From positions 1 to 64,000 of IMG/VR virus record IMGVR_UViG_3300020221_000005: a stretch of DNA of 64,000 nt; one strand, written 5' to 3'. How positions within the stretch are numbered: position 1 is the stretch's first letter; each line of letters starts with the position of its first letter. Position numbers and translations under genes: made by a program. Below, in pieces: positions 2,161 through 30,630 of this stretch. Below the pieces are notes generated by a model. The model was not told where the DNA came from. It was given only the letters and a program-made list of their open reading frames with translations, and did not search any database. The DNA comes from a virus.

Positions 2161-2273
2161 CGATAACGATAAAGGTATTTGCGCAGGTTTTGGTCCTCTA
2201 CCCTTGGTGCCCTTTCGGGTCGACCTGTCTGGCTATTAGTGTCGCCGCCACTTGTCTATCTGGTTTTACTTAC
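2161..2273 (-). ncRNA. Small structured RNA, family member E1
   Basis: A divergent member of the six-copy family. The minus-strand promoter is TTTACT (2302-2307), 16-nt spacer, TAAACT (2280-2285). The transcript contains a CCCGAAAGGG GNRA hairpin, AAGGGTAGAGGACC, and a 3' segment TGCGCAAATACCTTTATCG shared with other copies. It is longer at its 5' side than E2, E3 and E5. Confidence 0.6.
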
Positions 2274-2375
2274 GGGTACAGTTTATACTGATTTTATAAA
2301 AAGTAAAGAGAATTTTTTATAAAAATAATTTAAGGTATGTGTTTAAGGTATTGGTTGTGGACGTTATGGTGAAGT

Positions 2376-2452
2376 CAGATAACGATAAAGGTATATGGGT
2401 AGGGATTGGTCCCCTACTCTTGACGCCTTGCGGTCGGTCGCATCTTTATTAT
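2376..2452 (-). ncRNA. Small structured RNA, family member E2
   Basis: The minus-strand promoter is TTGACT (2481-2486), 16-nt spacer, TAAAAT (2459-2464). The RNA has three helices seen by eye: closing ATAAAG/CTTTAT, a hairpin around CCGCAAGG with a GCAA tetraloop, and GTAGGG/CCCTAC. The GCAA loop here versus GAAA in other copies keeps the GNRA pattern. Confidence 0.7.
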
Positions 2453-2619
2453 GTGTACATTTTACATAGATTTTATAAAAAGTCAACATTAAAAAGAGAA
2501 TGGAAATTGAATGTGGGGTAGATATTTATGGTTATGTGGAGGGTGATATTGTGGTGGCGGATGAATGGGTGATTATTTATTTATGTAACCGTTTGAGTTT
2601 TAGGAATTTATGAAAGTGG

Positions 2620-2647
2620 TTGACATTTTATAAAGTTGGAATAAGAT
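2620..2647 (+). promoter_or_regulatory. Promoter of 2657 gene
   Basis: TTGACA 2620-2625, 16-nt spacer beginning TTTTATAAAG, TAAGAT 2642-2647, then 9 nt to the ATG. The mRNA is predicted to be essentially leaderless. Confidence 0.8.
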
Positions 2648-2656
2648 ATTTGAACT

Positions 2657-2884
2657 ATGAATAACAAATTAAACACTATGAATAACAAATTGATTAACAA
2701 GGCTGGGTTTGAGGTTGTGCGTGGTCAGCAAGTGACAACCTTTCGGGGTGAGGAGGTTGAGGTGATTGATTGGAGGGCTCCTCACAAGCCATCTAGTTCT
2801 GGCAGGGTAGTGGTTAAGAATGTGAATGATAGTATTCGTGAGTATTTTCCGTCAGTGATTGGGTGTGAGATTGTGGTTGGTTAA
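2657..2884 (+). CDS. Small early protein, unknown function
   Basis: 75 residues, not recognised. The N-terminus repeats itself at DNA level (ATGAATAACAAATT twice), so translation could begin at 2657 or 2681; the promoter spacing favours 2657. The rest (FEVVRGQQVTTFRGEEVEVI) looks like a small beta-rich domain. It is the first gene of the rightward early block and precedes rIIA, which has its own promoter. Confidence 0.65.
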   Translation: MNNKLNTMNNKLINKAGFEVVRGQQVTTFRGEEVEVIDWRAPHKPSSSGRVVVKNVNDSIREYFPSVIGCEIVVG

Positions 2885-2893
2885 AACATACAG

Positions 2894-2921
2894 TTGACAA
2901 ATATAAAAAGTCGGATATTAT
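2894..2921 (+). promoter_or_regulatory. Promoter of rIIA-like gene
   Basis: TTGACA 2894-2899, 16-nt spacer containing ATATAAAAAG, TATTAT 2916-2921, 9 nt to ATG 2931. No Shine-Dalgarno sequence. Confidence 0.85.
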
Positions 2922-2930
2922 TTATTCACT

Positions 2931-5186
2931 ATGATTATTACAGCTAAAGACACTACTGGTTTGGTTACGAACAATCTTGGGAACGAATCTCGTAAGTTGG
3001 GGATTAAGGCGAGTGGTTGGGCGCATTTGTCCACGATTTTGCGGGACAGTTTGTATTCTGACAAGATTTTGGCACCTATACGTGAATATTCGACGAATGC
3101 TATGGATGCTCATGTTGAGGCGGGCAAGCCGACTCGTCCGATTTTGGTAAAGTTACCTAATTTGATAGTTTCTACGTTTGTGGTAAGAGATTATGGAGTT
3201 GGAATGAGTGAGCAGCGAATTTGGGAGGTATTTGCTAATTATGGTGAGTCAACCAAGCGTAGTTCTAATGAACAGACTGGTATGTTAGGGATTGGTTCAA
3301 AGAGTGCGTTTGCGTACACTGATAATTTTACGATTGTGAATTATCATCGTGGGGTTAAGAGTATTTTTATGTGTCACGTCGCTGGTAGTGCGGAGGGTGA
3401 TTTGGTGCGAGTGAGTTGTGAGCCTACTGTTGAGGAAGATGGTTTGGAGATTCAGATTCCGGTGTCGAAGGGTGACGTTTCGTTGTGGGTTGACAAGGCT
3501 AAGACGTTTTTTAGTTATTGGAAAGTGACTCCTATTTTTGAGGGTAACACGGTTGTTATTGAAAAGGACAAGTCTTTATTTGAAGGTGAGACTTGGTATA
3601 TGAGTGAGAAATTGTTATCTCAGTCCAAGACTAAACTTTTGATGGGCAACATTTGTTATGAGGTTGATTCGGAACAGCTTATCAACAAAGAGGATTGCAC
3701 AACTTTTGCAAATTATAATAATTCTATTTACTCGTCGGGCATTGTTTTGAAGGCGGAGATTGGTGATGTGGATGTGGCCGCGAGTCGTGAGGGATTACAA
3801 TATACGGCTAAGACGAAGGCATATTTTGCAAAAGTTATGCCTCAGATTTTGCAACAGTTGACTAATTTGATTCAAAAGGAAATTGATGAGTGCAAGACTA
3901 ATTTTGAAAAGAAGAAATTGGTCAATCGTTTTAGTGATTATCATTCTAAGTATTATCATTTGAGGTTTGTTACGGATAATCTTATTAAGAAACTGGGTGG
4001 TAGCACTTATGATTTGAATTTGTCATCGACGGGGCCATTTGCGAGTTATGATTCTGAGAGCATTGGTCTTGCGGTTACGCGGTATAAAAAGACGCGGCGT
4101 GGGCATCGTCGAGTTCGTGCTTGTGGGCAATTTTCAACTATTGAATGTCAGGATTCCATTAAATATATTAGTGTGAACGACACTGATAAACAGATTTTGA
4201 ATCGTGTGGCGGCATTGATTGAACGTGCTCCGACGACAACGCCTGTAAAGTGGGTTTATGTTTTTAAGGTATTGGACAAAGTTAAATTTAATGCATGGGT
4301 GCGTAAGGTGGGTTTTGATATTCCGTTAATTAAGTTTGATACGTTACCGATTGTAAAGACTTCAGAATTGTATCCTACATCGTCTCAGTCTTATAGTTAC
4401 AATCCCAAGTCTGGCAAGAAGATGTTTTTGTTAGACCGTAAACGTGCTTCTTTGGCGAGGCATAGTTATTCTGATTATTACGTTCCGACGTTGGTTGATA
4501 AGAACGATAAACGGGTGATTTATGTAGAGATAAATCAGTGGCAGATTAACTTTAATGGGCGTGATTATTCGCCGGCGAGTTTTTTGGATTTTCTTACTTA
4601 TTTGGAAACCACCTTTAATATAAAACTTCCTAAAATTATCGCGGTTAGGTCATCGGCGGTCAGCAAGTTAAAAAGTCAATTTGTGAAATTGAATGTGTAT
4701 TTGAAAGAGTTATTTAGTGTGAGTCCTAATCGTGAGAAAATTGTATCGATGTTAAAAGCTGCCTGTGTCAATTACATTGAGATAGGTAGTAATTATGGTT
4801 ATAATTCGGGTGACATAGCGGGTTATATGAATTCCCATAAGTTTCGGCTTTTATTCAAAAACATTCAGACGAGTGAGATTATGGATTCGGAGAGTATTTT
4901 CTCTAAACTGAGAGAGATTATTTTTAATTCTTCAGACAGTAGAGAGCTTAAAACTTATCGTGAGGTTTTGTTAAATTTTGTATCTAACATTAAAAATTGT
5001 GAAAAAGAGATTGACGATTATAAGTCTATGGTGACATCTTTATTGAAACAGTTTAACAAGCGTTATCCGGTTTTGTGTATGATTGATGACCGTTTTATTG
5101 GAAAAAATAAAGATGAATCATACAGTAAAAATTTGGTAGAATATGTGAATTTCGTGGATGGTAACGAAAAGTTAGTAGTGAGTTAA
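2931..5186 (+). CDS. rIIA: rIIA-like GHKL ATPase
   Basis: 751 residues, close to T4 rIIA in size and layout. GHKL ATP-binding motifs are clear: N box REYSTNAMDAH (51-61), G1 RDYGVGM (86-92) and glycine-rich GMLGIGSKSAF (117-127). T4 rIIA is a membrane-associated protein acting with rIIB in exclusion of superinfecting or resident phage; the exact mechanism is unsettled. The rIIB-like gene follows, and a strong hairpin separates the two. The start is fixed by the promoter 9 nt upstream. Confidence 0.92.
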   Translation: MIITAKDTTGLVTNNLGNESRKLGIKASGWAHLSTILRDSLYSDKILAPIREYSTNAMDAHVEAGKPTRPILVKLPNLIVSTFVVRDYGVGMSEQRIWEVFANYGESTKRSSNEQTGMLGIGSKSAFAYTDNFTIVNYHRGVKSIFMCHVAGSAEGDLVRVSCEPTVEEDGLEIQIPVSKGDVSLWVDKAKTFFSYWKVTPIFEGNTVVIEKDKSLFEGETWYMSEKLLSQSKTKLLMGNICYEVDSEQLINKEDCTTFANYNNSIYSSGIVLKAEIGDVDVAASREGLQYTAKTKAYFAKVMPQILQQLTNLIQKEIDECKTNFEKKKLVNRFSDYHSKYYHLRFVTDNLIKKLGGSTYDLNLSSTGPFASYDSESIGLAVTRYKKTRRGHRRVRACGQFSTIECQDSIKYISVNDTDKQILNRVAALIERAPTTTPVKWVYVFKVLDKVKFNAWVRKVGFDIPLIKFDTLPIVKTSELYPTSSQSYSYNPKSGKKMFLLDRKRASLARHSYSDYYVPTLVDKNDKRVIYVEINQWQINFNGRDYSPASFLDFLTYLETTFNIKLPKIIAVRSSAVSKLKSQFVKLNVYLKELFSVSPNREKIVSMLKAACVNYIEIGSNYGYNSGDIAGYMNSHKFRLLFKNIQTSEIMDSESIFSKLREIIFNSSDSRELKTYREVLLNFVSNIKNCEKEIDDYKSMVTSLLKQFNKRYPVLCMIDDRFIGKNKDESYSKNLVEYVNFVDGNEKLVVS

Positions 5187-5197
5187 TATCATAGTAT

Positions 5198-5233
5198 AAC
5201 GGCGGAGAGAGAACCATCTTTCTCTCCGCCGTT
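5198..5233. terminator. Strong GC hairpin between rIIA and rIIB
   Basis: AACGGCGGAGAGA pairs perfectly with TCTCTCCGCCGTT around a short loop. On the plus strand A-rich sequence follows rather than a T tract, so it may attenuate or protect the rIIA 3' end; on the minus strand the flank is also short in T. Confidence 0.7.
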
Positions 5234-5243
5234 AAAAATAAGG

Positions 5244-5271
5244 TTGACAACGAGTAAATTTTTGATAAAGT
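5244..5271 (+). promoter_or_regulatory. Promoter of rIIB-like gene
   Basis: TTGACA 5244-5249, 16-nt spacer, TAAAGT 5266-5271. Unlike most promoters here it leaves a leader of about 29 nt containing three ATTAAAC words before ATG 5307. Confidence 0.7.
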
Positions 5272-5306
5272 AAAAAGTAGATTAAACATTAAACATTAAA
5301 CAACAA

Positions 5307-6287
5307 ATGAAAATTCCGTATATTATTACTTCTACGTCTATTACTGCGGTGATTAACGGTAAAACTTATGTGACGGATAAGACTCATAAGGAATATGAGG
5401 CTATTAAGGCGATGTTGGTGTCGGATTCTGTTGAAGTTGACAAGCTGGTTGAATTATTTGATATTACTTCGACGGTTAATCGTTATTGTGAAGGTAAGAT
5501 TTTGGTTAAACATGGTTTGGTATCTTACAATGATGTTCCAGTGGATAATTATGTGACTAAGAAAATTCTTCAATTTATGGATGAGAAGTTGCCGGTTGAA
5601 CCTATTGTGAATTTTTTGAATAGATTGATGAAGAATCCGAGTCGGCGAGCGGTTTCTGAGCTTTACACGTTTTTGGAGCATAAGAATATGCCGTTGACTC
5701 CTGATGGTTATTTTTTGGCATACAAGGGTGTGCAAACGGATTATTGGTCTAAGCACGCGAATCTTTCGACGAGAGTGATTCGTGGAAAAGTTGATAGTTC
5801 TGGTCGGCTTAACAACGCGGTGGGTGAAGTGATTGAAGTTGAACGTAACAATGTTTGTGATGATGCTTCGGTTGGTTGTGGAGAGGGCATTCACGCGGGT
5901 AGTTTGAAGTATGCTAATGATTGGGCGACTTCGGATGGGCGTTTAATGATTGTTAAGATTGACCCGGCCGATGTGGTTAGTGTGCCTACCGATTGTTCGT
6001 GTCAGAAACTTAGGACGTGTAAGTATGAAGTGGTGGCCGAACAGGTTGACAGAAGTGCGTTAAGTGATACTATGACTCCTGAAGATAAAAATCGTGTTCA
6101 GGCAACATCTAATAATGCAGAGTTCTCGACTGATGACTCATCCCTTAAATCGGAAGAATATGACCGTGGTTATTCTGCGGGTGAAAAAGACGCACAGTTG
6201 GGATTAGATTGTATTGATGAATTGTTGACGGATAGTGACTATCGAGATGGATATATTGATGGTTATAACGACTGTGATCCAATGTAG
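5307..6287 (+). CDS. rIIB: rIIB-like protein
   Basis: 326 residues. The segment PVEPIVNFLNRLMKNPSRRA and the following LTPDGYFLAYKGV are hallmarks of phage rIIB-like proteins. The middle region has several Cys (NVCDDASVGC, CSCQKLRTC). The C-terminal tail SEEYDRGYSAGEKDA and YRDGYIDGYNDC is acidic and repetitive and not part of T4 rIIB as I know it. Placed directly after rIIA, as in T4-like phages. Confidence 0.88.
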   Translation: MKIPYIITSTSITAVINGKTYVTDKTHKEYEAIKAMLVSDSVEVDKLVELFDITSTVNRYCEGKILVKHGLVSYNDVPVDNYVTKKILQFMDEKLPVEPIVNFLNRLMKNPSRRAVSELYTFLEHKNMPLTPDGYFLAYKGVQTDYWSKHANLSTRVIRGKVDSSGRLNNAVGEVIEVERNNVCDDASVGCGEGIHAGSLKYANDWATSDGRLMIVKIDPADVVSVPTDCSCQKLRTCKYEVVAEQVDRSALSDTMTPEDKNRVQATSNNAEFSTDDSSLKSEEYDRGYSAGEKDAQLGLDCIDELLTDSDYRDGYIDGYNDCDPM

Positions 6288-6304
6288 TATAAACAAAACA
6301 TAAT

Positions 6305-6381
6305 GCGAGCCTGGTGATACATGGGGAGCACATCGGTCGTCCAGATCGAAGGGGAAGGTTTAAATCCTTCGGCTCGCTCCA
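6305..6381 (+). tRNA. tRNA-Gly(TCC)-like, unusual anticodon loop
   Basis: Full cloverleaf: acceptor GCGAGCC/GGCTCGC (7 bp), D stem GTG/CAC, anticodon stem TCGGT/ATCGA, T stem GAAGG/CCTTC, encoded CCA. The 7-nt anticodon loop is CGTCCAG, giving TCC at positions 34-36 but G instead of the near-universal T at position 33; the first and last loop bases could also pair. The T loop TTTAAAT also departs from TTCRANY. The fold is secure, the decoding is not. Confidence 0.7.
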
Positions 6382-6393
6382 AAACAAAAATAT

Positions 6394-6537
6394 ATGGGAA
6401 AAAGTTATAAAGCTAATAGTAAATACGAGAAGTATAAGAAGAATGGTAGTAATAAAAAGAATAATGGAAAACGACACGAACGTGAAGAAAATGAAAAGTT
6501 CGACTGGCGTAAGTCATTAGATAATTCTCAAGACTAA
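6394..6537 (+). CDS. Small basic protein
   Basis: 47 residues, MGKSYKANSKYEKYKKNG and onward, very rich in Lys, Asn and Arg, with an acidic patch EREENEKFDW near the end. It starts 12 nt after the tRNA and ends 16 nt before the next gene, so it fits the gene order well. Not recognised; charge suggests nucleic-acid contact. Confidence 0.6.
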   Translation: MGKSYKANSKYEKYKKNGSNKKNNGKRHEREENEKFDWRKSLDNSQD

Positions 6538-6553
6538 TTTAACATATATTTAT

Positions 6554-7114
6554 ATGGGAACACGAAGTATTACGCGGGTTTTAGATGAATCAAACAATGT
6601 GATTCTAACCATGTATCGACAAATGGATGGTTATTTAGAAGGACACGGTGTCGAACTTGTTAAATTTTTGAAAGATTTCAAGATAACCAACGGAATTGAA
6701 ACCAACGTGGCGGCAAAAACTGCTAATGGAGTTGGTTGTTTAGCGGCTCAATTAGTGGGTCATTTTAAGACTGGTGTTGGCGGAATCTATCTTGTTCCGA
6801 CGTCTGCCGAAGAAGAAGAATACAATTATACCATCCGAGTTTTGGATGAGATGGTGACTCTTACCTATACACGAGGAGATGAGAGTGGAACTTTACTTCC
6901 GGTCAATGCTGATAAGATTGATAACTTTCAACAAGTGGTTGAGTTTTTATATCCGGACAAATATTTTGAGAATCAATGGCGTAAAATTCTAGTTATTTCT
7001 CGTGACGATCGGCACATAACTGGATTTGATTTAAAGAATAATAATCAGGTAAAACGTTTTCTTTTAGAAAAAGTTTTTGGTGGAGAAGACAAAGTGTTTG
7101 CATCTAGTAAATAA
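6554..7114 (+). CDS. Conserved phage protein starting MGTRS
   Basis: 186 residues. The opening MGTRSITRVLDESN and MYRQMDGYLEGHGVELVKFL belong to a widespread family of phage and bacterial hypothetical proteins with the pattern MGTRS...YRQ.DGY..GHG. Function not known to me. The C-terminal third is Lys/Asn rich. A downstream zinc-ribbon gene starts 4 nt after the stop, suggesting an operon. Confidence 0.75.
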   Translation: MGTRSITRVLDESNNVILTMYRQMDGYLEGHGVELVKFLKDFKITNGIETNVAAKTANGVGCLAAQLVGHFKTGVGGIYLVPTSAEEEEYNYTIRVLDEMVTLTYTRGDESGTLLPVNADKIDNFQQVVEFLYPDKYFENQWRKILVISRDDRHITGFDLKNNNQVKRFLLEKVFGGEDKVFASSK

Positions 7115-7118
7115 AAGT

Positions 7119-7310
7119 ATGATAAAGTGTAAATGTTACAAGTGTGGTAAGGAAGAAGTGTTTGAAGATCATAAACAAGCCTGGATGGCTGGTTGGGATT
7201 TTCTAAGTGATGGTAAAATGATTTGTGGCGACTGTTCGTCAATGTCTTTTTCTAAAGATAATCTTCTTTCGAAAACCGCTAATAAAAAATATGAAAACTC
7301 CGAAGAATAA
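7119..7310 (+). CDS. Small zinc-ribbon protein
   Basis: 63 residues. Two cysteine pairs, CYKCG (residues 5-9) and CGDC, spaced by about 27 residues, make a typical zinc ribbon. Start chosen at 7119 because the longer in-frame start at 7077 would overlap the preceding gene by 38 bases. It overlaps the next gene by 20 bases. Confidence 0.65.
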   Translation: MIKCKCYKCGKEEVFEDHKQAWMAGWDFLSDGKMICGDCSSMSFSKDNLLSKTANKKYENSEE

Positions 7311-7653
7311 ATCAAATATAAATAAGATATTCGTACCTTTTACTGGTACGATAGATCAATTATTGAATCACGTTGACAAAATTGATCCTACTCAAGTTGA
7401 AAATGTAGTGGTTAATCATACTGAAGACGTTTTTTTGGATGATAAAACCGCAATTGAAATAATTAAAAGTGAATTGAACTGTGAAAAACAACAGGCGATG
7501 GAGATCTTAAATCAAATTAAACTTGAAGAAATATCTAAAACTCTTAATGATTTAGTTGAAGAAGGTTTGGTAGAAATTAGTGAGTATGACAAAAATGGCG
7601 AACCACTATATTCTTTAACTGAAGCTGGAAAGTTGTTCTCTAAAAAAAAATAA
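7291..7653 (+). CDS. Protein with C-terminal winged-helix-like segment
   Basis: 120 residues from ATG 7291; the upstream in-frame start at 7225 lies fully inside the previous gene. The C-terminal LNDLVEEGLVEISEYDKNGE followed by PLYSLTEAGKLF is typical of the wing of small winged-helix DNA-binding domains. The N-terminal part (IDQLLNHVDKIDPTQVENVV) is not recognised. Possible early transcription regulator. Confidence 0.6.
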   Translation: MKTPKNKSNINKIFVPFTGTIDQLLNHVDKIDPTQVENVVVNHTEDVFLDDKTAIEIIKSELNCEKQQAMEILNQIKLEEISKTLNDLVEEGLVEISEYDKNGEPLYSLTEAGKLFSKKK

Positions 7654-7668
7654 TTAACAAAAATAAAT

Positions 7669-8004
7669 ATGATTGATGGAAATAATGTTACACTTGAAGT
7701 GGTAAAAGATTCTAAAACAGTTATTAAACGTGGTCCTGGCCGGCCTAAGACCAAAATGACACTTAAACGAGTAGTTTTATTGAATGGCAAACCAGTAGGG
7801 CGTGGTCGACCCGGTAAAACGAGTTGTTCTAATCGAACGGTAGTGTTTATTCCTATAAATGAAACCTATAACGAGTCTGTTCATGGTGTTGGTAAGAAGT
7901 ATATTTCAGGTTTGAATCAATATACGCATCAAATTAAACGGGTTGATTTGAATAACTTTACAAAATTAACTAAAATGACAAACAAAACTATGGTCGAGGC
8001 GTAA
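7669..8004 (+). CDS. AT-hook DNA-binding protein
   Basis: 111 residues with two AT-hook cores, RGPGRPKTK (about 21-29) and GRGRPGK (about 44-50), that bind the minor groove of AT-rich DNA. In an AT-rich genome it could act in nucleoid organisation or early promoter control. It closes the 6394-8004 run and is followed by a strong terminator. Confidence 0.7.
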   Translation: MIDGNNVTLEVVKDSKTVIKRGPGRPKTKMTLKRVVLLNGKPVGRGRPGKTSCSNRTVVFIPINETYNESVHGVGKKYISGLNQYTHQIKRVDLNNFTKLTKMTNKTMVEA

Positions 8005-8024
8005 AATCGCCAAGGAAATGGGGG

Positions 8025-8060
8025 AGAATTCTCACCGGTCAAAAGCCGGTGAGAATTTTT
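8025..8060 (+). terminator. Intrinsic terminator
   Basis: GAATTCTCACCGG pairs with CCGGTGAGAATT across a 7-nt loop, followed by a T run. Ends the rightward operon after the AT-hook gene and faces the leftward small RNA E3. Confidence 0.85.
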
Positions 8061-8071
8061 ATATTAAAGTT

Positions 8072-8147
8072 AGATAACGATAAAGGTATTATTGCAGGAT
8101 TTGGTCCCCTACTCTTGACGCCTTTCGGTCGGTCGCATCTTTACTGT
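8072..8147 (-). ncRNA. Small structured RNA, family member E3
   Basis: The minus-strand promoter is TTGACT (8176-8181), 16-nt spacer, TAAACT (8154-8159). The RNA has closing TAAAG/CTTTA, the conserved GACCGACCGAAAGGCGTC hairpin and GTAGG/CCTGC, where G-T replaces the A-T or C-G of sister copies. No ORF on the RNA strand. Confidence 0.7.
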
Positions 8148-8206
8148 AGGTACAGTTTATCTTAATTTTAAAAAAAGTCAAATGCTAATTTTTAAAAGTT
8201 GGAGGC

Positions 8207-19250: not shown

Positions 19251-19964
19251 TTAAATTTCAGGTTCTACCACAAATCCACTTTCATCTTTTTTAGCTCTAC
19301 CTTTTTCGATTAAACCTACCACGACATTTTTCTCATCAGTAAAACGAAGGTCCGTCAAATCTCCGTCAACAACTTTGTAGCCTTTGTAATTTGTCGGTAA
19401 CGAATTACGAAAAACTACCGCAACATTTCCACCTGACTTCAAAACCAAGTCAACTTGATTGTCGTTTGTCTCACTACGGCTAAAAGTTAGATGATAATTC
19501 TTAGGAAGAGTACCCGTAATAAATTTATTCATCCGTTCAAAAGACTTGGTATAATCGTAAAATTGAACAACTGGAAAGTGTTCCATAATGTTTTTACCAT
19601 TAAGATTGATATTTTCCCATGGCAAATCACTGGTTCCATTGAGCCGGATGCATGGTATTTTACCTTGTTTATCGGCCTTTTTCAGAAGTTTTGTGATTTC
19701 AGAGGAAAGCTGACTCATCCAAATACCTTTGTTCTTGAAAAATGCCAATGTTTTAGCCACTCGTGCTTCCCTCACGTTAGACATAACGCCACGACCAGCA
19801 GTAAATAGACACGCAGATTTGCAACCAACAGAAGCGTTCTTGCACGTATTATAACCCGATTCGTCAGCGGGAGCCAAATACGAAATGCCAGTGATGTAAC
19901 CGAATTTAGAACCTTTGACGGTTTTAGCGTTAGTGTCGATTCCAAGAATAGGTTGACGTTTCAT
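19251..19964 (-). CDS. GP88-family phage protein
   Basis: 237 residues, full length. Signature segments: GIDTNAKTVKG, GISYLAPADESGYNTCKNAS, VGCKSACLFTAGRG, REARVAKTLAFF, IRLNGTSDLPW, VVQFYDYTKS, NYHLTFSRSE. This is the Gene product 88 family found in many phages (for example mycobacteriophages). The Cys cluster CKNASVGCKSAC suggests metal or Fe-S binding. Function not established as far as I know. Leaderless minus-strand promoter. Confidence 0.85.
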   Translation of the reverse strand: MKRQPILGIDTNAKTVKGSKFGYITGISYLAPADESGYNTCKNASVGCKSACLFTAGRGVMSNVREARVAKTLAFFKNKGIWMSQLSSEITKLLKKADKQGKIPCIRLNGTSDLPWENINLNGKNIMEHFPVVQFYDYTKSFERMNKFITGTLPKNYHLTFSRSETNDNQVDLVLKSGGNVAVVFRNSLPTNYKGYKVVDGDLTDLRFTDEKNVVVGLIEKGRAKKDESGFVVEPEI

Positions 19965-20035: not shown

Positions 20036-20150
20036 TTAATTTACTTTATTTTCAGTAAAGTGATTTGCGCACCCTCCGGTACCCTATCCTCGGCGCCTTG
20101 GAAGGTCTGGCCGGATCGTCCTTTAAGTGTCGGACACCACTTTCACTTAC
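20036..20150 (-). ncRNA. Small structured RNA, family member E4
   Basis: The minus-strand promoter is TTGACT (20179-20184), 16-nt spacer, TAAACT (20157-20162). Divergent core (AAGGCGCCGAGGATAGGGTA) with closing AAAGTG/CACTTT, P3 GTACC/GGTGC, then a 3' hairpin ACTTTA/TAAAGT identical to that of E6. The closing-stem sequence differs from E2 and E3 but pairing is kept. Confidence 0.6.
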
Positions 20151-20208
20151 AAGGACAGTTTAGACTAAATTTATAAAAAGTCAACCGTTATTTTATAAAA
20201 AATGAAGA

Positions 20209-24408: not shown

Positions 24409-24477
24409 ATCGCACAACTAAAATTAATAACATTTGCTAAAAAGTCAAACGATAAATTTCAAATCGATGGTATTTAA

Positions 24478-24552
24478 TTTAACGATAACGCAATGTAGGT
24501 AGGAATTGGTCCCCTACTCTTGACGCCTTTCGGTCGGTCGCATCTTTATTAT
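24478..24552 (-). ncRNA. Small structured RNA, family member E5
   Basis: The minus-strand promoter is TTGACT (24581-24586), 16-nt spacer, TAGACT (24559-24564). Core identical to E3 over GATGCGACCGACCGAAAGG and onward to GGGGACCA; P3 is GTAGG/CCTAC. The closing stem of E2/E3 is not evident here. Confidence 0.65.
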
Positions 24553-24610
24553 GCGTACAGTCTACTAAAAATTTATAAAAAGTCAACCGTTATTTTATAA
24601 AAAATGAAGA

Positions 24611-24639
24611 TTGACATTTTGAACTTTTATCGGTATTCT
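24611..24639 (+). promoter_or_regulatory. Promoter of 24710 gene
   Basis: TTGACA 24611-24616, 17-nt spacer, TATTCT 24634-24639; duplicates the promoter before tRNA-Lys. Confidence 0.7.
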
Positions 24640-24709
24640 ATTTTGACAGTTGAAAATTCTAAAATAAACTGATTGAAAAACTTCCTATAAATCTTATTTA
24701 ATAATAATT

Positions 24710-24835
24710 ATGACTGTATTATCTTTGGTATTCTATTTGGTTGGTGATTTTATCATTTGGATTTCTCAGATGGTTTCTAATCTCGGAAATTTACTATACT
24801 CTTTGGGAAATAAAATTTGTGAATGGGGTGATTAA
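24710..24835 (+). CDS. Very small membrane protein
   Basis: 41 residues, MTVLSLVFYLVGDFIIWISQ then MVSNLGNLLYSLGNKIC. Strongly hydrophobic amphipathic first half. Supported by the upstream promoter and open frame only. Confidence 0.45.
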   Translation: MTVLSLVFYLVGDFIIWISQMVSNLGNLLYSLGNKICEWGD

Positions 24836-24867
24836 AATAATATAATTAAATAATATTATTAAATAAT

Positions 24868-25014
24868 ATGTTTATTCAAGGCAAGTATATGAAAGTTATT
24901 GGAAATAATAAAGAAGGAATATGGTTCTTGGATGAGGAAGAATTGTATGAGATTTTTATTTCTTTTATTGATTTGCCTAAATATGCTGCAATTCATCCAG
25001 TTTTGGTGATGTGA
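24868..25014 (+). CDS. Small hypothetical protein
   Basis: 48 residues, MFIQGKYMKVIGNNKEGIWF followed by LDEEELYEIF; looks like a small beta-alpha domain. Sits between 24710 and the next promoter. Not recognised. Confidence 0.5.
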   Translation: MFIQGKYMKVIGNNKEGIWFLDEEELYEIFISFIDLPKYAAIHPVLVM

Positions 25015-25017
25015 GTC

Positions 25018-25045
25018 TTGACAAATAAAAAAACTTTGATAGGAT
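25018..25045 (+). promoter_or_regulatory. Promoter of 25052/25075
   Basis: TTGACA 25018-25023, 16-nt spacer AATAAAAAAACTTTGA, TAGGAT 25040-25045, 6 nt to ATG 25052. Confidence 0.85.
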
Positions 25046-25051
25046 TCTATT

Positions 25052-25078
25052 ATGATGAACAGCGCGGCCTTCGCATGA
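25052..25078 (+). CDS. Leaderless mini-ORF (8 codons) upstream of 25075
   Basis: MMNSAAFA then TGA. Its ATG sits exactly where transcription should begin, and its TGA overlaps the ATG of the next gene as ATGA. Inference: ribosomes load on the leaderless start, terminate, and reinitiate on the main gene. Confidence 0.5.
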   Translation: MMNSAAFA

Positions 25079-25398
25079 AATACCAAACCAAATACGACAG
25101 CCTGCAAATTTGGCACCTGCACAAACTGTTTGCCGATGAAGCCTTTTCGAAGTGGGTCGTCAACGAGATCGTCAGCGGCGAAAGAGACTTGTCACCCGAC
25201 GAGATTGAACTGCGTGATCAGGCGCTTAGAAACGCTGAAGTCGAACGCGCCTTCCTGCGTTCCCTCTGGTCCGCCCGCGAGGCTCGTCTGCACAACCCAA
25301 AGGAAACTTCGGCGCACTTGGATAAAGCTATGAAAGAAATAGAATTATATTATATTGCCCCAGGAATTATCAAATACAAAATCAAAAAGAAAAAATGA
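25075..25398 (+). CDS. Hypothetical helical protein
   Basis: 107 residues from ATG 25075. Helical and charged (FADEAFSKWVVNEIVSGERD; EIELRDQALRNAEVERAFLR), ending in KIKKKK. First 80 residues have GC-rich codons, the end is AT-rich, suggesting a recent join. The alternative TTG start at 25018 is the -35 box. Not recognised. Confidence 0.6.
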   Translation: MKYQTKYDSLQIWHLHKLFADEAFSKWVVNEIVSGERDLSPDEIELRDQALRNAEVERAFLRSLWSAREARLHNPKETSAHLDKAMKEIELYYIAPGIIKYKIKKKK

Positions 25399-25419
25399 TT
25401 ACCACAAGGAATGATAGCC

Positions 25420-25447
25420 TTGACAAATAAAAAAACTTTGATAGGAT
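25420..25447 (+). promoter_or_regulatory. Promoter of 25454 gene
   Basis: TTGACA 25420-25425, 16-nt spacer AATAAAAAAACTTTGA, TAGGAT 25442-25447, 6 nt to ATG. Confidence 0.85.
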
Positions 25448-25453
25448 CTTATT

Positions 25454-25708
25454 ATGATGACCGAGTTGACTAAACGTGAGCTTGAGATTATTCGGGTTGC
25501 GCTTTCCTACATGAGCAGCAACGTTTCTGATATAAACGAGGTCGTTGGCAAAGATTTTGATTCCAATTTTACCGAAGCCGAGGTTTGTGATGTCCAGAGA
25601 AAGTTGCTCTCCGAAGATCCGCTCTTCAAAGAGCTGATGGCGGAAGGTCTGGCGATGCAGGACCGCTTCTCGGCGGAACCGGTTTACGCTAAGACCGGCA
25701 AGGACTAG
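25454..25708 (+). CDS. Hypothetical protein
   Basis: 84 residues, acidic and helical (LTKRELEIIRVALSYMSSNV; AEVCDVQRKLLSEDPLFKEL). Leaderless. Not recognised. Confidence 0.6.
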   Translation: MMTELTKRELEIIRVALSYMSSNVSDINEVVGKDFDSNFTEAEVCDVQRKLLSEDPLFKELMAEGLAMQDRFSAEPVYAKTGKD

Positions 25709-25754
25709 CTTACGAGAACACGAGCAACTATCTGTTGCAACGATTATACAAGTC

Positions 25755-25782
25755 TTGACAAATAGAAAAACTTTGGTAGGAT
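25755..25782 (+). promoter_or_regulatory. Promoter of 25789 gene
   Basis: TTGACA 25755-25760, 16-nt spacer AATAGAAAAACTTTGG, TAGGAT 25777-25782, 6 nt to ATG. Confidence 0.85.
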
Positions 25783-25788
25783 TCTATT

Positions 25789-26004
25789 ATGAATTCTCAA
25801 AACTGCATGGCCAAATACGAAATTACCGTTGAAGAAATTTGTGAAATTCGTCACGCAATGGCAAATGCCAAAGGTGCTTTAATTGCAATCTCAAATTTTG
25901 AACAGTTAGATCACGTAAAAGATTTGATTCAATCTCACATCGAAAAGCTTGAATCCGCATTACAAACGAGTAACAAATGTTTGGACCGTCGTTCTGAAAA
26001 TTAA
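25789..26004 (+). CDS. Small helical protein
   Basis: 71 residues, helical (ITVEEICEIRHAMANAKGAL; LIQSHIEKLESAL). Three Cys without a ribbon pattern. Leaderless. Not recognised. Confidence 0.6.
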   Translation: MNSQNCMAKYEITVEEICEIRHAMANAKGALIAISNFEQLDHVKDLIQSHIEKLESALQTSNKCLDRRSEN

Positions 26005-26028
26005 CTTTTTAAGTTGGTTTTATTTTTT

Positions 26029-26244
26029 ATGCCTTCTAAAAAACAAAAACCCGGTTTTAGGACAAACTTAAGAAATCGTTACGAATTGGCGAGTCATTCA
26101 ATTTTTAATAAACTGCCTGCGTGGAAACAATCCGCGATTAAAATTGATCGACAAACAGGTAATTTTAACAGTCATGTAATGAACGAATATGCTAAACAAG
26201 TCGAAAATCTTGTCAATGATAACACTGAAATATTTTTGACGTAA
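26029..26244 (+). CDS. Small basic protein, LPxWK family copy 2
   Basis: 71 residues from ATG 26029. LPAWKQSAIKIDRQTGNFNS and MNEYAKQVENLV align with the 23116 product. Basic N-terminus MPSKKQKPGF. No standard promoter is visible, so it probably rides on the 25789 transcript. Confidence 0.6.
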   Translation: MPSKKQKPGFRTNLRNRYELASHSIFNKLPAWKQSAIKIDRQTGNFNSHVMNEYAKQVENLVNDNTEIFLT

Positions 26245-26259
26245 ACTAACCTTTTGAGG

Positions 26260-26287
26260 TTGACTTATTTTAAATTACTGATATTAT
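26260..26287 (+). promoter_or_regulatory. Promoter of 26297 gene
   Basis: TTGACT 26260-26265, 16-nt spacer, TATTAT 26282-26287, 9 nt (TTTTTCACA) to ATG. Confidence 0.85.
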
Positions 26288-26296
26288 TTTTTCACA

Positions 26297-26617
26297 ATGA
26301 ATCAACCAATCTACCACGAAACCTCGGCTGCCATTTACTTCGATAACGGTGACGGAAGTTTAACGGTTAAACAAAAACGAAACGTCACAATAAGGAAAAC
26401 CATCGCGACGTTTAAAAACGACGATCTTGGACGTTTAGCATATAAAAACTTCCGAAAAACTCTTGTTAATAAGGAAAATATCTATTGTCTTTACCGATGC
26501 CCTAATGACGGTAGAACTTATGACAAGACTGCTCCTTTTTCGACAAGTCGTTCTCGACGTGGTTCTATTCGTAAAAAATTTGCTAAAGTAATGACGGTTC
26601 TTCAATCAAATAGATAA
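26297..26617 (+). CDS. Basic protein, IYHES family copy 1
   Basis: 106 residues. Paralogue of 31603-31917: N(Q)PIYHE.S.A.Y.D.GDGSLT, then YCLYRCPNDGRTYD and SRRGSIRKK near the end. Two single cysteines, very basic C-terminus. Function unknown. Confidence 0.65.
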   Translation: MNQPIYHETSAAIYFDNGDGSLTVKQKRNVTIRKTIATFKNDDLGRLAYKNFRKTLVNKENIYCLYRCPNDGRTYDKTAPFSTSRSRRGSIRKKFAKVMTVLQSNR

Positions 26618-26622
26618 ATTCT

Positions 26623-26664
26623 ATGAAGATGAAAACCACTAAACCAAAACTCATTTCCGAATGA
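26623..26664 (+). CDS. Possible mini-ORF upstream of 26661
   Basis: MKMKTTKPKLISE then TGA overlapping the next ATG (ATGA). Same architecture as 25052 and 27097, but no promoter was found directly before it. Confidence 0.35.
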   Translation: MKMKTTKPKLISE

Positions 26665-26912
26665 AAACCATCGTCCTAGTGTTCGTTCAACAAGAAGGCG
26701 AACCGCAGTATTGCATCGGGCAAGTTGCGGTCGAAAACACGTTGCTTCGGGCCGATGAACCCGATGCCTTGCTGAAAGAACTTTGGGCGGAATGGCGGAA
26801 AGATGTTGAGGAACCCGATTCCGATTCCGAGTTCATTGATTGGCTTGTAACGAACAAGCCGGGATTTGATGCCGTTGTCATGCCAGTGACTTACACGGTT
26901 ATCAAAGACTAA
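26661..26912 (+). CDS. Hypothetical acidic protein
   Basis: 83 residues, acidic (ADEPDALLKELWAEWRKDVE; EPDSDSEFIDWLV), GC-richer codons. Not recognised. tRNA-Asn follows. Confidence 0.6.
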   Translation: MKTIVLVFVQQEGEPQYCIGQVAVENTLLRADEPDALLKELWAEWRKDVEEPDSDSEFIDWLVTNKPGFDAVVMPVTYTVIKD

Positions 26913-26966
26913 AAACTCATAATTCAAGAGTGAAAATATTATACAATTTGTTAAATCTTAAATAAT

Positions 26967-27041
26967 TCCAGAGTAGCTCAATTGGTAGATTGCGTTCGGC
27001 TGTTAACCGAAATGTTGTAGGTTCGAGTCCTACCTCTGGAG
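26967..27041 (+). tRNA. tRNA-Asn(GTT)
   Basis: 75 nt, no encoded CCA. Acceptor TCCAGAG/CTCTGGA, anticodon stem TTCGG/CCGAA with loop CTGTTAA (GTT 27002-27004), T loop TTCGAGT, discriminator G. Confidence 0.93.
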
Positions 27042-27059
27042 CTCTTTTAATTTTGAGGC

Positions 27060-27087
27060 TTGACTTTTTATAAAAATCTTCTATACT
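27060..27087 (+). promoter_or_regulatory. Promoter of 27097/27117
   Basis: TTGACT 27060-27065, 16-nt spacer with TTTTATAAAA, TATACT 27082-27087, 9 nt (TTCCTCACA) to ATG 27097. Confidence 0.88.
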
Positions 27088-27096
27088 TTCCTCACA

Positions 27097-27120
27097 ATGA
27101 AAAACGAAATGAAAATATGA
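27097..27120 (+). CDS. Leaderless mini-ORF (7 codons) upstream of 27117
   Basis: MKNEMKI then TGA overlapping the ATG of 27117 as ATGA. The ATG lies at the standard 9-nt distance from the -10 box, where a main start codon is normally found. Confidence 0.5.
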   Translation: MKNEMKI

Positions 27121-27362
27121 AACTCAATCATACATTTGAAGATTACTTTTGTCACCAAGGCCGCGAATACTATCTCTGTACGGATTACGAATTCGATCAT
27201 GCCGATAGATTACAACTCGCCAACTTCGCCATGTGGAAATCCAACCATTATGGCGACAAAATTTCGCAAAAAGAATTTGAAGCAGACCAAGAGCTCTATG
27301 ATACTGTCTGCGAAATTCTCGCAAATCAAAACCCGACTTGCTACGGCGGTGCGCCTTGCTAA
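27117..27362 (+). CDS. Hypothetical protein
   Basis: 81 residues from ATG 27117. HTFEDYFCHQGREYYLCTDY and a Cys near the C-terminus (NPTCYGGAPC). Acidic and aromatic. A structured RNA follows in the same direction and may share its transcript. Confidence 0.6.
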   Translation: MKLNHTFEDYFCHQGREYYLCTDYEFDHADRLQLANFAMWKSNHYGDKISQKEFEADQELYDTVCEILANQNPTCYGGAPC

Positions 27363-27417
27363 CTCGCGCAGCTTATCAATCGAAAAAGTTGTGCCAATCG
27401 TTCTTTAAAAACTTTTT

Positions 27418-27503
27418 GACAGCAGCATACATTGATGTATGAATACGATGAGTGAATCGTTGAAAGTATCTAGCCAACACCTAGCCGATGTTGGTCTGCT
27501 GTC
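27418..27503 (+). ncRNA. Cloverleaf-shaped RNA, not a tRNA
   Basis: Closing stem GACAGCAG/CTGCTGTC (8 bp) encloses three hairpins: CATACA-TTGA-TGTATG, ACGAT/ATCGT, and CCAACA/TGTTGG. The overall shape is tRNA-like, but stem lengths, loops and the lack of TTCRA exclude a functional tRNA. An intrinsic terminator follows directly. No promoter seen; probably processed from the 27117 transcript. Confidence 0.6.
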
Positions 27504-27509
27504 ATTCTT

Positions 27510-27545
27510 CTTTGGGTGTAGAAGTTTACACAAAGCGTTTTTTTT
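27510..27545 (+). terminator. Intrinsic terminator after cloverleaf RNA
   Basis: CTTT...GTGTA pairs with TACAC...AAAG, followed by GCG and a run of eight T. Confidence 0.8.
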
Positions 27546-27556
27546 CAAATTGAGGC

Positions 27557-27584
27557 TTGACGTTTTATAAAAATCCTCTATACT
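27557..27584 (+). promoter_or_regulatory. Promoter of 27594 gene
   Basis: TTGACG 27557-27562, 16-nt spacer with TTTTATAAAA, TATACT 27579-27584, 9 nt (GTTTTCACA) to ATG. Confidence 0.88.
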
Positions 27585-27593
27585 GTTTTCACA

Positions 27594-28097
27594 ATGAAAA
27601 TTAAAAAACACTCAGTCGTTAAGACCCTTGTTGACCTCCCGAGCCAGAATGATGTTAAACGAATCCTCCCGGCCGGCACCGTTGCTCAAGTGAGCAAGGT
27701 TTATCGTGATGGTAATCGGAAACTGTATCTCTACTGTAATTACTATGGTTTCTTGGCTGCCGAACACGAAGTCGAACTGACGCCTGGCAATCGTCAAGTT
27801 CCCAAGGTCGGTGACGTGTTCCTGACCTCATGGGGTTACGATCAGACCAACATCGACTTTTATCAGATTACCGCCGTGAAGGGTGAGTCGGTGAAGGTTC
27901 GTCAGATTCGTGGCGAGACAGTCAACTACGCCAATATGTCAGGCGAAGTACGGGCGGTTAAGGATTCGTTCTGTGGTGAGGAAATGACCAAAAGGTTGAA
28001 ATACTCCATCAAAGGCATCCCTTCCTTCAGAATTGCCAGTTACGCTAACGCTTTTCCTGATGACGGAGGCACCCACTTCTTCAGCGAGTGGCACTAA
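27594..28097 (+). CDS. Conserved phage/bacterial protein, SWGYDQTN family
   Basis: 167 residues. N-terminal half looks like a small SH3/KOW-type barrel (VKRILPAGTVAQVSKVYRDG). The C-terminal half has VGDVFLTSWGYDQTNIDFYQ, VRQIRGE and FRIASYANAF, ending FFSEWH; SWGYDQTN is the mark of a conserved hypothetical family. Function unknown. Leaderless. Confidence 0.7.
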   Translation: MKIKKHSVVKTLVDLPSQNDVKRILPAGTVAQVSKVYRDGNRKLYLYCNYYGFLAAEHEVELTPGNRQVPKVGDVFLTSWGYDQTNIDFYQITAVKGESVKVRQIRGETVNYANMSGEVRAVKDSFCGEEMTKRLKYSIKGIPSFRIASYANAFPDDGGTHFFSEWH

Positions 28098-28200
28098 CCC
28101 AACGTCTACAAGAGAATTTAGATTACATCTATGAAAGTTAATAACTAAATTTTAGCCTATCGAGGCATCCTAATCGCCTCCGAATTCATTGTCCACTCTT

Positions 28201-28233
28201 GTTCCGTAGTGGGGCTTACACGGAACATTTTTT
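28201..28233 (+). terminator. Terminator immediately before 28238 gene
   Basis: GTTCCGT (28201-28207) pairs with ACGGAAC (28220-28226), followed by A and seven T. It ends 5 nt before the next ATG, so it either ends upstream transcription or attenuates the downstream gene. A second hairpin GAGGC/GCCTC lies at about 28162-28180. Confidence 0.75.
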
Positions 28234-28237
28234 TACC

Positions 28238-28420
28238 ATGAAAATTACACCAATTAAAGATTGTGTCAATTACATCGTTGGTTGTGGCTTTACTTTCGAG
28301 GGAAAGGCGGGCAGAAACACCTACGTTTTTCGTAAAAATGTAGGAACCATGCCGAATGGGAGCGACGTGGTTTTCTTCACTCTGTCAGAACTTCGTCACG
28401 CTGAAAAGTTTGGATGGTAA
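28238..28420 (+). CDS. Small hypothetical protein
   Basis: 60 residues from ATG 28238 (longer frame from 28199 crosses the terminator). MKITPIKDCVNYIVGCGFTF, then RNTYVFRKNVG and FFTLSELRHAEKFG. Not recognised. No promoter; expression must come through the terminator. Confidence 0.5.
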   Translation: MKITPIKDCVNYIVGCGFTFEGKAGRNTYVFRKNVGTMPNGSDVVFFTLSELRHAEKFGW

Positions 28421-28428
28421 AAAAACAG

Positions 28429-28456
28429 TCGACTTTGTATAAAAATCCTCTATACT
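28429..28456 (+). promoter_or_regulatory. Promoter of 28466 gene
   Basis: TCGACT 28429-28434, 16-nt spacer with TATAAAAA, TATACT 28451-28456, 9 nt (GTTTTTACA) to a GTG start. Confidence 0.82.
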
Positions 28457-28465
28457 GTTTTTACA

Positions 28466-28735
28466 GTGAAAATTGAAAATTACATCGGACCTAAAATGAA
28501 AGCAACCATTGCTCCTCTCGAAATCGCTGTGAACCACACTGTTCGCCCCGATGTGGGACGTGAATTTATCTCCTTCTCGATCACTGGTTGGGATGACGTT
28601 AAGAAATTAACTAAAAAGGTGCTTGTCTATGACGGACGTAAGTTTGTGTTCTCCTGCTGGGATTCCGACAGAATGGAGTGCGTGTTCTATCGCATGTTGG
28701 ATGGTTCGACAATCACCGCGAAAATTGCAAAATAA
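28466..28735 (+). CDS. Hypothetical protein, leaderless GTG start
   Basis: 89 residues. The GTG sits at the standard 9-nt distance from the -10 box. Beta-rich (VGREFISFSITGWDDVKKLT; VLVYDGRKFVFSCWDSDRME). Not recognised. Three nucleotides separate it from the next gene. Confidence 0.6.
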   Translation: MKIENYIGPKMKATIAPLEIAVNHTVRPDVGREFISFSITGWDDVKKLTKKVLVYDGRKFVFSCWDSDRMECVFYRMLDGSTITAKIAK

Positions 28736-28738
28736 TCT

Positions 28739-29512
28739 ATGAAAAGTGTTAAAATAAAAAGCAAGTGTGGCACAACAATGGAAATACTATCATTCGATCC
28801 TGTATTAGAACTATTCTATTGTTTTATGCCTGTTTTAAAGAAGACTTTTAGTATTCATTCTTCTGGCATTGACATTGATGAAGAAAAACTAGATACTCTT
28901 AAAGAGGAGATGACAAATAAAACCAACCTACAACGTCTTACTGTGGGCAGCTGTCTTGCTGTCTCAAACCTCATAGACAAGACCGTTCGTTATACGACGA
29001 CTGGAAAAACTTTCTCCATCGACGTTTTAGAGAGCGATTACGGAAACAAATCGAAGGCGAATAATCTCATTACCATGCATTCTGTTAGCTGTGCTCGCAA
29101 GGCATCTTTTGACGAATTTGTGTCTATGGTAGACAATGACTACTTCGAGGAATTTGTGTATTTGTTCACCCCTGGTCGCGGCTGGACCACTCTTTACCCA
29201 CTGTTGGATATGAGCGGCGGACATAAGAAATCACCAGTAACAGAATACGTTATTTCTCGCCTTAACAAGATAGCGCCAGGTTTTCTATTATTTCCAAAGG
29301 ATTTTCAATGGCTTTTGGAACTAAACCGTTGCCATGGAAAGACGAAGATCACGAATGAAAGTCTAGTATCGGCAATGCGTAAGGCTCTGCCAAAGGAAAC
29401 GGAAAAATACTCTAAGAAATATGATAAATTCCCCGCAATGTGCGATCCGTGGGAGCTACTGATCGAAGCGGGGATTTGTGATATACACACTATTGCGACA
29501 AAAAATTTATGA
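28739..29512 (+). CDS. Hypothetical protein
   Basis: 257 residues, alpha/beta, several dispersed Cys. Contains MTNKTNLQRLTVGSCLAVSN and ELNRCHGKTKITNESLVSAM. Not recognised. ATGA overlap with the next gene. Confidence 0.6.
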   Translation: MKSVKIKSKCGTTMEILSFDPVLELFYCFMPVLKKTFSIHSSGIDIDEEKLDTLKEEMTNKTNLQRLTVGSCLAVSNLIDKTVRYTTTGKTFSIDVLESDYGNKSKANNLITMHSVSCARKASFDEFVSMVDNDYFEEFVYLFTPGRGWTTLYPLLDMSGGHKKSPVTEYVISRLNKIAPGFLLFPKDFQWLLELNRCHGKTKITNESLVSAMRKALPKETEKYSKKYDKFPAMCDPWELLIEAGICDIHTIATKNL

Positions 29513-29700
29513 AAAGAGTAATTATTGACAATAAATACACTTATGAAACCAACATACCACGTCTTCGTGTGGGCAACAAAGTCGTCCTTCCTACGCCGTA
29601 TTGGTTAAGAGATGTTCGGGGGAACACGTGGATAGGACGAATCACTTCCATGACCAGCACTTATGAGGGATATTGTGAAAAAATTATCAGTAGAGCTTGA
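29509..29700 (+). CDS. Small hypothetical protein
   Basis: 63 residues, MKRVIIDNKYTYETNIPRLR, then GNKVVLPTPYWLRD. Starts in an ATGA overlap. Its TGA stop is the TGA inside the following TTGACA element (29697-29702), which may be a promoter for 29760. Confidence 0.55.
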   Translation: MKRVIIDNKYTYETNIPRLRVGNKVVLPTPYWLRDVRGNTWIGRITSMTSTYEGYCEKIISRA

Positions 29701-29759
29701 CAAATCCAACCCAATCTGTTAAAAGTAATAATAAATAGTATTCAACAATAAAACCTACT

Positions 29760-30275
29760 ATGCCAAACTGGTGCAATAATCAAATTGAAATTACCGCAAC
29801 CTCTCCACAAGAGTTTAAGAAATTCCATGAACATATGGGAGATTATTTTTCTTTTGAACGAATCGTTCCCACGCCGCTTGCTGCGGATGGTAAAGTTATA
29901 GAGAACTGGTACACTTGGCGGCTCGAACATTGGGGAACCAAGTGGGACTTGGAGAAGGAAGAATTTCTTGCTGGGAATCAAGATGCTTGGAAATTTTCTG
30001 ATACGGATGATTCTGTGACTTTGAATTTCGATACCGCTTGGGGGCCACCAATCGAAGCCTTAAAAAATTTGGTGGAGAAGTTTCCTGCGCTCACGATAGA
30101 CCTTAAGTATTTTGAACCGGGAATGGCTTTCGGCGGCGTGGCGAATTTTTCTGCGCGAGATGGTTTTACTGAACGATGTTACAAAAGCCATGAGCCAGAA
30201 TATGCAGAGCTTGTCGAGGATTTTTCTTACCAAGACGAAAATCTTTCGCCAGATCAAGACGAAGGAAAACTTTAA
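29760..30275 (+). CDS. Api92-like ferredoxin-fold phage protein
   Basis: 171 residues. MPNWCNNQIEIT at the start, then F..I.PTPL, ENWYTWRLEHWGTKWD, FDTAWGPPIEAL and YFEPGMAFGGV match the Api92-like family (ferredoxin-like domain, DUF1281-related) of phages and bacteria. Function unknown. The last 12 bases begin an 80-bp segment duplicated at 34032. Confidence 0.85.
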   Translation: MPNWCNNQIEITATSPQEFKKFHEHMGDYFSFERIVPTPLAADGKVIENWYTWRLEHWGTKWDLEKEEFLAGNQDAWKFSDTDDSVTLNFDTAWGPPIEALKNLVEKFPALTIDLKYFEPGMAFGGVANFSARDGFTERCYKSHEPEYAELVEDFSYQDENLSPDQDEGKL

Positions 30276-30302
30276 GAAAATCTTTAATTCGACATCAAGG
30301 GC

Positions 30303-30330
30303 TTGACATTTTATAAAAAGTAGATAAACT
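30303..30330 (+). promoter_or_regulatory. Promoter of 30340 gene
   Basis: TTGACA 30303-30308, 16-nt spacer TTTTATAAAAAGTAGA, TAAACT 30325-30330, 9 nt (GTTTGCACA) to ATG. Identical copies precede 34111 and (one base different) 33529. Confidence 0.88.
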
Positions 30331-30339
30331 GTTTGCACA

Positions 30340-30450
30340 ATGAATAACGCAACCGACCCCAACAACTCTAAGCTCGACCCGCAAGATGAGGATGACTTCG
30401 CGCTGATGGTGATGGTTTTACTGATAGTGGTGGTGGTGATGTTCTGGTGA
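30340..30450 (+). CDS. Very small membrane protein
   Basis: 36 residues: polar acidic head MNNATDPNNSKLDPQDEDDF and a C-terminal hydrophobic span ALMVMVLLIVVVVMFW. Strong promoter support. Tail-anchored topology is likely. Confidence 0.6.
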   Translation: MNNATDPNNSKLDPQDEDDFALMVMVLLIVVVVMFW

Positions 30451-30513
30451 CGGGTCGGGCGTGGATGACTTCGCGGAATTTCGTCATCGTGTGTATGGTG
30501 AGCCGTTGCCGGC

Positions 30514-30541
30514 TTGACATTTTATAAAAAGTAGATAAACT
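30514..30541 (+). promoter_or_regulatory. Promoter of small RNA E6
   Basis: TTGACA 30514-30519, 16-nt spacer TTTTATAAAAAGTAGA, TAAACT 30536-30541, but no start codon follows. Confidence 0.85.
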
Positions 30542-30547
30542 AGTCAC

Positions 30548-30630
30548 AGTTGAGATGCGACCGACCGAAAGGCGTCAAGAGTAGGGGACCAGGGGGTGCG
30601 CAAATTACTTTACTGAAAATAAAGTAAAAT
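30548..30630 (+). ncRNA. Small structured RNA, family member E6
   Basis: The only plus-strand member. The 5' half matches E3/E5 (GATGCGACCGACCGAAAGGC and onward), while the 3' half (GGGTGCGCAAATTACTTTAC, hairpin TTACTTTA/TAAAGTAA) matches E4, so it looks like a recombinant. It is followed directly by the promoter of 30673. Confidence 0.7.

Follow-up and report, generated by a model that had tools for sequence, protein, structure and literature searches.

A dispersed family of putative small structured RNAs, each behind its own promoter, in environmental phages

Six short, related elements lie scattered over a phage genome, and the question they raise is whether they are small RNAs that work on their own, leaders of the genes beside them, or a repeat with no RNA function. 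The genome is the 103,351-base IMG/VR phage record IMGVR_UViG_3300020221_000005, of which positions 1 to 64,000 form the window analysed here. An earlier note had read the elements as one family. All six are present where it placed them, both by checking the sequence and by a core model built from relatives, and a search of all 103,351 bases of the record with that model matches these six and none besides. The RNA sense is the minus strand for E1 to E5 and the plus strand for E6:

E1, 2161-2273, minus strand: long form, RNA 5' end near 2273; core-model match 2161-2216 (63.7 bits, E 1.9e-13).
E2, 2376-2452, minus strand: short form; core-model match 2377-2432 (62.9 bits).
E3, 8072-8147, minus strand: short form; core-model match 8072-8127 (67.5 bits).
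E4, 20036-20150, minus strand: long form, upstream of a GP88 gene; core-model match 20047-20102 (55.8 bits).
E5, 24478-24552, minus strand: short form; core-model match 24477-24532 (58.3 bits).
E6, 30548-30630, plus strand: short form; core-model match 30566-30621 (64.9 bits).

The common core ascribed to all six is found in its exact 20-nt form in E2, E3, E5 and E6, whereas E1 and E4 mismatch it at 5 of 20 positions. Alignment of the six copies identifies E6 as a recombinant. Because its 5' part is shared with E2, E3 and E5 and its 3' part with E4, the copies evidently recombine, which supports the earlier suggestion that they were dispersed by duplication; two other contigs hold near-identical copies of E6. 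A 9-codon ATG...TAG reading frame occurs in E2, E3, E5 and E6; E1, E4 and most relatives either lack it or have it out of frame. We therefore reject a conserved mini-ORF or short-peptide coding element, in agreement with the earlier statement that no ORF is conserved.

Relatives were gathered by exact patterns in IMG/VR, the contig set growing by rounds, and the core model was built from 22 copies in a 57-column alignment that has no more than one internal gap, of a single base. With it, about 45 copies were identified across 16 records (1-6 per record, E values down to 1e-15), a count that takes in two long 3' variants, the two near-identical E6 copies and a few degenerate copies. Nearly all of the records are IMG/VR phage contigs; the element-bearing contigs are 5-279 kb long, and the 189-kb one among them is repeated in another contig of 365 kb. 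A MAG labelled Methanoregulaceae makes up one record; its contigs with the element are small (7-8 kb) and have genes in common with phage contigs, so we take them as misbinned phage sequence. Beyond this MAG, one pattern scanned against 84,980 prokaryote genomes returned one chance match only, and loci L007, L008 and L031 proved to be chance pattern matches and not relatives. The core model found no element in ten named phage records. Searches with blastn of E1 and E2 against phages and plasmids gave weak, short matches only (best E 0.003), which sit by position at or near the A/T-rich E1 promoter, and the element is absent from two of the records concerned. No relatives were found with rIIA as bait; in the window, an rIIA-like and an rIIB-like gene (PHROGs phrog_612 and phrog_609) stand side by side at positions 2931-6287.

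Related long forms with an extra ~170 nt after the core occur at L027 (2200-2470) and L068 (480-720). Within the extra stretch, the blocks UGUAUUGGCGUWUAUGGCG and UAACUUGUUGAAA are common to both phages, and CTTTATCGTTA lies beyond it, inside an apparent convergent reading frame. At the centre of locus L179, a copy is split by an insert of ~68 bp that is flanked by repeats CCTGCGCAAAT and contains a T-run and promoter-like sequence; the copy looks like a degenerating copy.

Folded singly, E1 to E6 do no better than shuffled sequences (z +0.8 to -1.6), so the case for structure rests on comparison. Strong covariation is seen in P2, a hairpin immediately upstream of the core: in a permutation test (5000 permutations), which asks how well a copy's 3' arm matches the sequence upstream in that copy, the own-arm score was 248, compared with a mean of 162 and maximum of 229 when arms were exchanged among copies. 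Its arm pairs include GAC/GUC, GGC/GCC, GGU/ACC, AGC/GCU, GCC/GGC, CCG/CGG, ACG/CGU, GGAG/CUCC and GUCG/CGAC, and its internal loop is often CGA/C. On the basis of this test, P2 is placed in the window as follows:

E1 P2, 2206-2225, minus strand: GGU-CGA-CCC-GAAA-GGG-C-ACC.
E2 P2, 2422-2439, minus strand: GAC-CGA-CC-GCAA-GG-C-GUC.
E3 P2, 8117-8134, minus strand.
E4 P2, 20092-20112, minus strand: GGC-CAGA-CC-UUCCAA-GG-C-GCC.
E5 P2, 24522-24539, minus strand.
E6 P2, 30559-30576, plus strand.

An H-type pseudoknot, not reported in the earlier note, is also present in the long forms, namely E1 and E4 together with relatives from no fewer than seven other records; in the window it is defined by blind search and by covariation with relatives:

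E1 pseudoknot, 2231-2252, minus strand: AGUG/CACU with GGC/GCC.
E4 pseudoknot, 20118-20142, minus strand: AAGUG/CACUU with GUCC/GGAC.

Variants of the first helix are AGUG/CACU, AAGUG/CACUU, AGGU/ACCU, GGU/ACC, CGUC/GACG and CGAC/GUCG, and those of the interlocking second helix GGC/GCC, GUCC/GGAC and GGCA/UGCC. Blind search regains the pseudoknot with 4+3 pairs in eight of nine long forms and with 3+3 pairs in all nine. In an alignment whose arms were extracted by hand, which favours structure, 98% of cells are paired, with 12 double changes and a covariation of 0.653 against 0.132 for shuffles that preserve column make-up; none of 500 shuffles reaches 0.653.

The core itself, AAGRGUAGGGGACC followed after 17-18 nt by CUUUANCGUUA, is the most conserved part of the element, and despite this sequence conservation no convincing covariation was found for pairs inside it. 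P3 (GTAGG/CCTGC and variants), one of the helices in which pairing-preserving changes had been described, is paired in 61% of cells when 22 relatives are compared, and its covariation is not above that of shuffles; the other, the AUAAAG/CUUUAU closing stem, is limited to some short forms. The earlier description of small structured RNAs is thus upheld by comparison over 16 records and by covariation in P2 and the pseudoknot, while its two named helices do not extend to the family as a whole. A candidate P4 (UAGGGG/ACUUUA) has 90% of cells paired, but it is nearly invariant, does no better than shuffles and is broken in L093-type copies; we regard it as unproven.

That the core and its 3' CUUUANCGUUA are conserved by sequence and not by compensatory pairs is compatible with a base-pairing regulatory RNA, whose conserved single strands would find a partner in some conserved RNA of the host or phage. 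We consider this unlikely. In E. coli 23S rRNA, UAACGAUAAAG at positions 1265-1275 is perfectly complementary to one element sequence, CUUUAUCGUUA; however, the match is broken by a central N and by the variants CUUUACUGAAA and CGUUAUCGUUA, and it was sought after the fact. We treat it as a lead and not a finding.

A TTGAC-type promoter with a 16-nt spacer had been claimed for each element. Read from the sequence, five of the six have TTGAC(A/T)-16-TAnnnT, and E1 alone has a different first hexamer:

E1 promoter, 2280-2307, minus strand: TTTACT-16-TAAACT.
E2 promoter, 2459-2486, minus strand: TTGACT-16-TAAAAT.
E3 promoter, 8154-8181, minus strand: TTGACT-16-TAAACT.
E4 promoter, 20157-20184, minus strand: TTGACT-16-TAAACT.
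E5 promoter, 24559-24586, minus strand: TTGACT-16-TAGACT.
E6 promoter, 30514-30541, plus strand: TTGACA-16-TAAACT.

Family-wide, a TTGAC(A/T)-(~16)-TAnnnT promoter lies upstream of 41 of 42 copies; the corresponding figures are 9.8% for random positions and 2 of 42 when the opposite strand is read. Many ordinary genes of the phage that carries E1 to E6 are directly preceded by the same type of promoter, which indicates that it is the phage's ordinary promoter, here serving units without a reading frame. About half of the copies, including E3 and E5, face a convergent gene, a share that is approximate given that the ORFs are mechanical calls, and the next promoter begins 4-31 nt past the element end in 23 of 42 copies. 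No terminator was found near E3, and the 3' end of the element is not explained by one. At L069 (3190-3330), two convergent elements meet at the palindrome CGTTAACG; they have no more than these final bases in common, which marks the 3' end of the unit. Judged from sequence, this anatomy of own promoter, convergent genes and a promoter close behind appears to fit stand-alone small RNAs better than leaders.

The leader reading would have the nascent RNA act in cis, loading onto RNA polymerase and making it resistant to termination or pausing, in the manner of HK022 put RNA. Put RNA is ~70 nt long with two stem-loops, and putL lies just downstream of PL (PMC9378689). The short forms, at ~65-75 nt, likewise begin at or near +1 with a 5' hairpin and would be hairpin-based RNAs at the start of early-type phage transcripts, and E4 and E6 lie ahead of same-strand genes. 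We hold this to be unlikely, though it is, with base-pairing, a rival to be taken seriously. The many copies that face a convergent gene have no co-directional operon to serve, which argues against a leader role, and over half are promptly followed by a further promoter; put RNA is cis-acting and present in two copies per genome, whereas the family's units stand alone on both strands, and the core model finds no match in HK022.

Several copies per genome, a recombinant E6 and a core that begins near GTAG would also suit a dispersed, non-autonomous mobile or recombining repeat devoid of RNA function, but the covariation in P2 and the pseudoknot, the dedicated promoters at 41 of 42 copies and the preservation of diverged copies across distant phages make this very unlikely, and by eye neither inverted ends nor target duplications were noticed. 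The common ending of 16S rRNA is GUACCGGAAGGUGCGGCUGGAUCACCUCCUUU, and E4 GUACCGGAGGGUGCGCAAAUCACUUUA resembles it (score 26, uncorrected p 0.003). A decoy mimicking this 3' end (helix 45 plus the anti-Shine-Dalgarno tail) is nonetheless a very unlikely reading, as scoring against real E. coli 16S with shuffles is suggestive in a few copies only (best full-length match at 1511-1541 in three relatives) and not significant over all elements tested, and the h45-like hairpin is limited to a subset; the E4 likeness, too, is a lead rather than a finding.

The earlier note knew of no RNA family with this core, and Rfam 15 agrees: its covariance models give no match at or above the gathering threshold for the window elements or their relatives. 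At E values up to 10, E1 and E2 have chance matches below threshold only, RF00177 (bacterial SSU rRNA) gives no match, and none of the CRISPR-DR families, a test covering Rfam repeats only, matches the window elements at threshold. Literature searches for structured phage RNAs comparable to these turned up no description, a weak negative. At the level of sequence, comparison establishes the family, its promoters, P2, the pseudoknot and the sequence-conserved core, and the E1-E6 family has the look of a genuine class of viral RNA not described before.

Several known systems invite comparison. In type III TA systems, ToxI is a pseudoknotted small RNA that lies as a tandem repeat before its toxin gene. 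The family is alike in being a small pseudoknotted RNA that could, by analogy, inhibit a protein; it differs in consisting of scattered single units, and no toxin-type gene was found as a common neighbour or partner of the copies. Racrs, or viral solitary repeat units, are viral small non-coding RNAs right behind a dedicated promoter that mimic CRISPR repeats and can serve as host-RNP decoys (PMC10651486). Our family shares the viral small non-coding RNA with a promoter immediately upstream and may analogously be an RNP decoy, but its members are larger, have a conserved core and a pseudoknot, and show no Rfam CRISPR match at the gathering threshold. GOLLD and ROOL are large, ornate structured RNAs, partly in phages, with functions unknown or recently studied (PMC12286853); they are alike as structured RNAs present in phages, whereas the family's RNAs measure 65-115 nt, occur in several copies per genome and lack an Rfam match. 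Racrs are the closest in logic and HK022 put RNA in short-form architecture, and we claim membership in neither.

Two neighbouring genes recur beside the element, and both also belong to families found in phages without it:

19251-19964, minus strand: GP88-family gene (PF17338, E 2.4e-50), downstream of E4.
30673-30996, plus strand: homologue of phrog_21015, a small protein.

An element lies upstream of the GP88 gene in five phages (the window, with E4, and G004, G005, G006 and G009). A convincing element was present at only 2 of 80 GP88 loci, and none was found in the named GP88 phages tested, so GP88 is rejected as an obligate partner. A phrog_21015 gene follows the element in about eight records, but XacN1, DLP_3 and Lebethron encode homologues and lack the element, which disposes of this protein as a partner as well. 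We read both adjacencies as shared early-region gene order, not as a required partnership. The GP88 family is widespread in Pelagibacter, mycobacterial and jumbo phages. Elsewhere, the window holds a phage tmRNA at 37225-37603 on the plus strand (RF00023, 122.8 bits), with the ARAGORN-predicted tag AKNVIAYDFIPVEEEVLVVA; ARAGORN also predicts eight tRNA genes, seven of them above the Rfam threshold.

On balance, we propose that E1 to E6 are probably paralogues within a phage small-RNA family not described before, whose members would act in trans and most likely serve as decoys that bind a protein. We infer that each RNA is transcribed and works in trans, the better-supported half of the earlier suggestion of trans-acting RNAs or sponges, since the elements form complete units and frequently point into a convergent gene; the sponge half gains no such support. 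A sigma-70-type promoter at each element would start an RNA of ~65-115 nt, in which an optional H-type pseudoknot (in long forms) would precede P2 and the core, with the 3' end at about CUUUANCGUUA. The core, which is invariant while the helices that hold it vary freely, would then be bound by a single host or phage protein or RNP, which several copies would titrate or inhibit early in infection. Capture of a protein or RNP by the core, as decoy or inhibitor, seems the most likely role, as a core that is the most conserved part and yet has no covarying pairs is what is expected of a protein-recognition sequence. More tentatively, and with considerable doubt, the family may be a class of decoy RNA in which the invariant core traps either a defence nuclease or a host RNP that is essential, with the paralogues supplying a multi-copy dose; possibly it mimics part of the ribosome.

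Phage genome annotation usually stops at proteins and tRNAs. An RNA family that is compact, multi-copy and equipped with a conserved pseudoknot, and that recurs in diverse large environmental phages, would be searchable with a covariance model and would give the inhibitor proteins of phages a concrete, testable non-coding counterpart.
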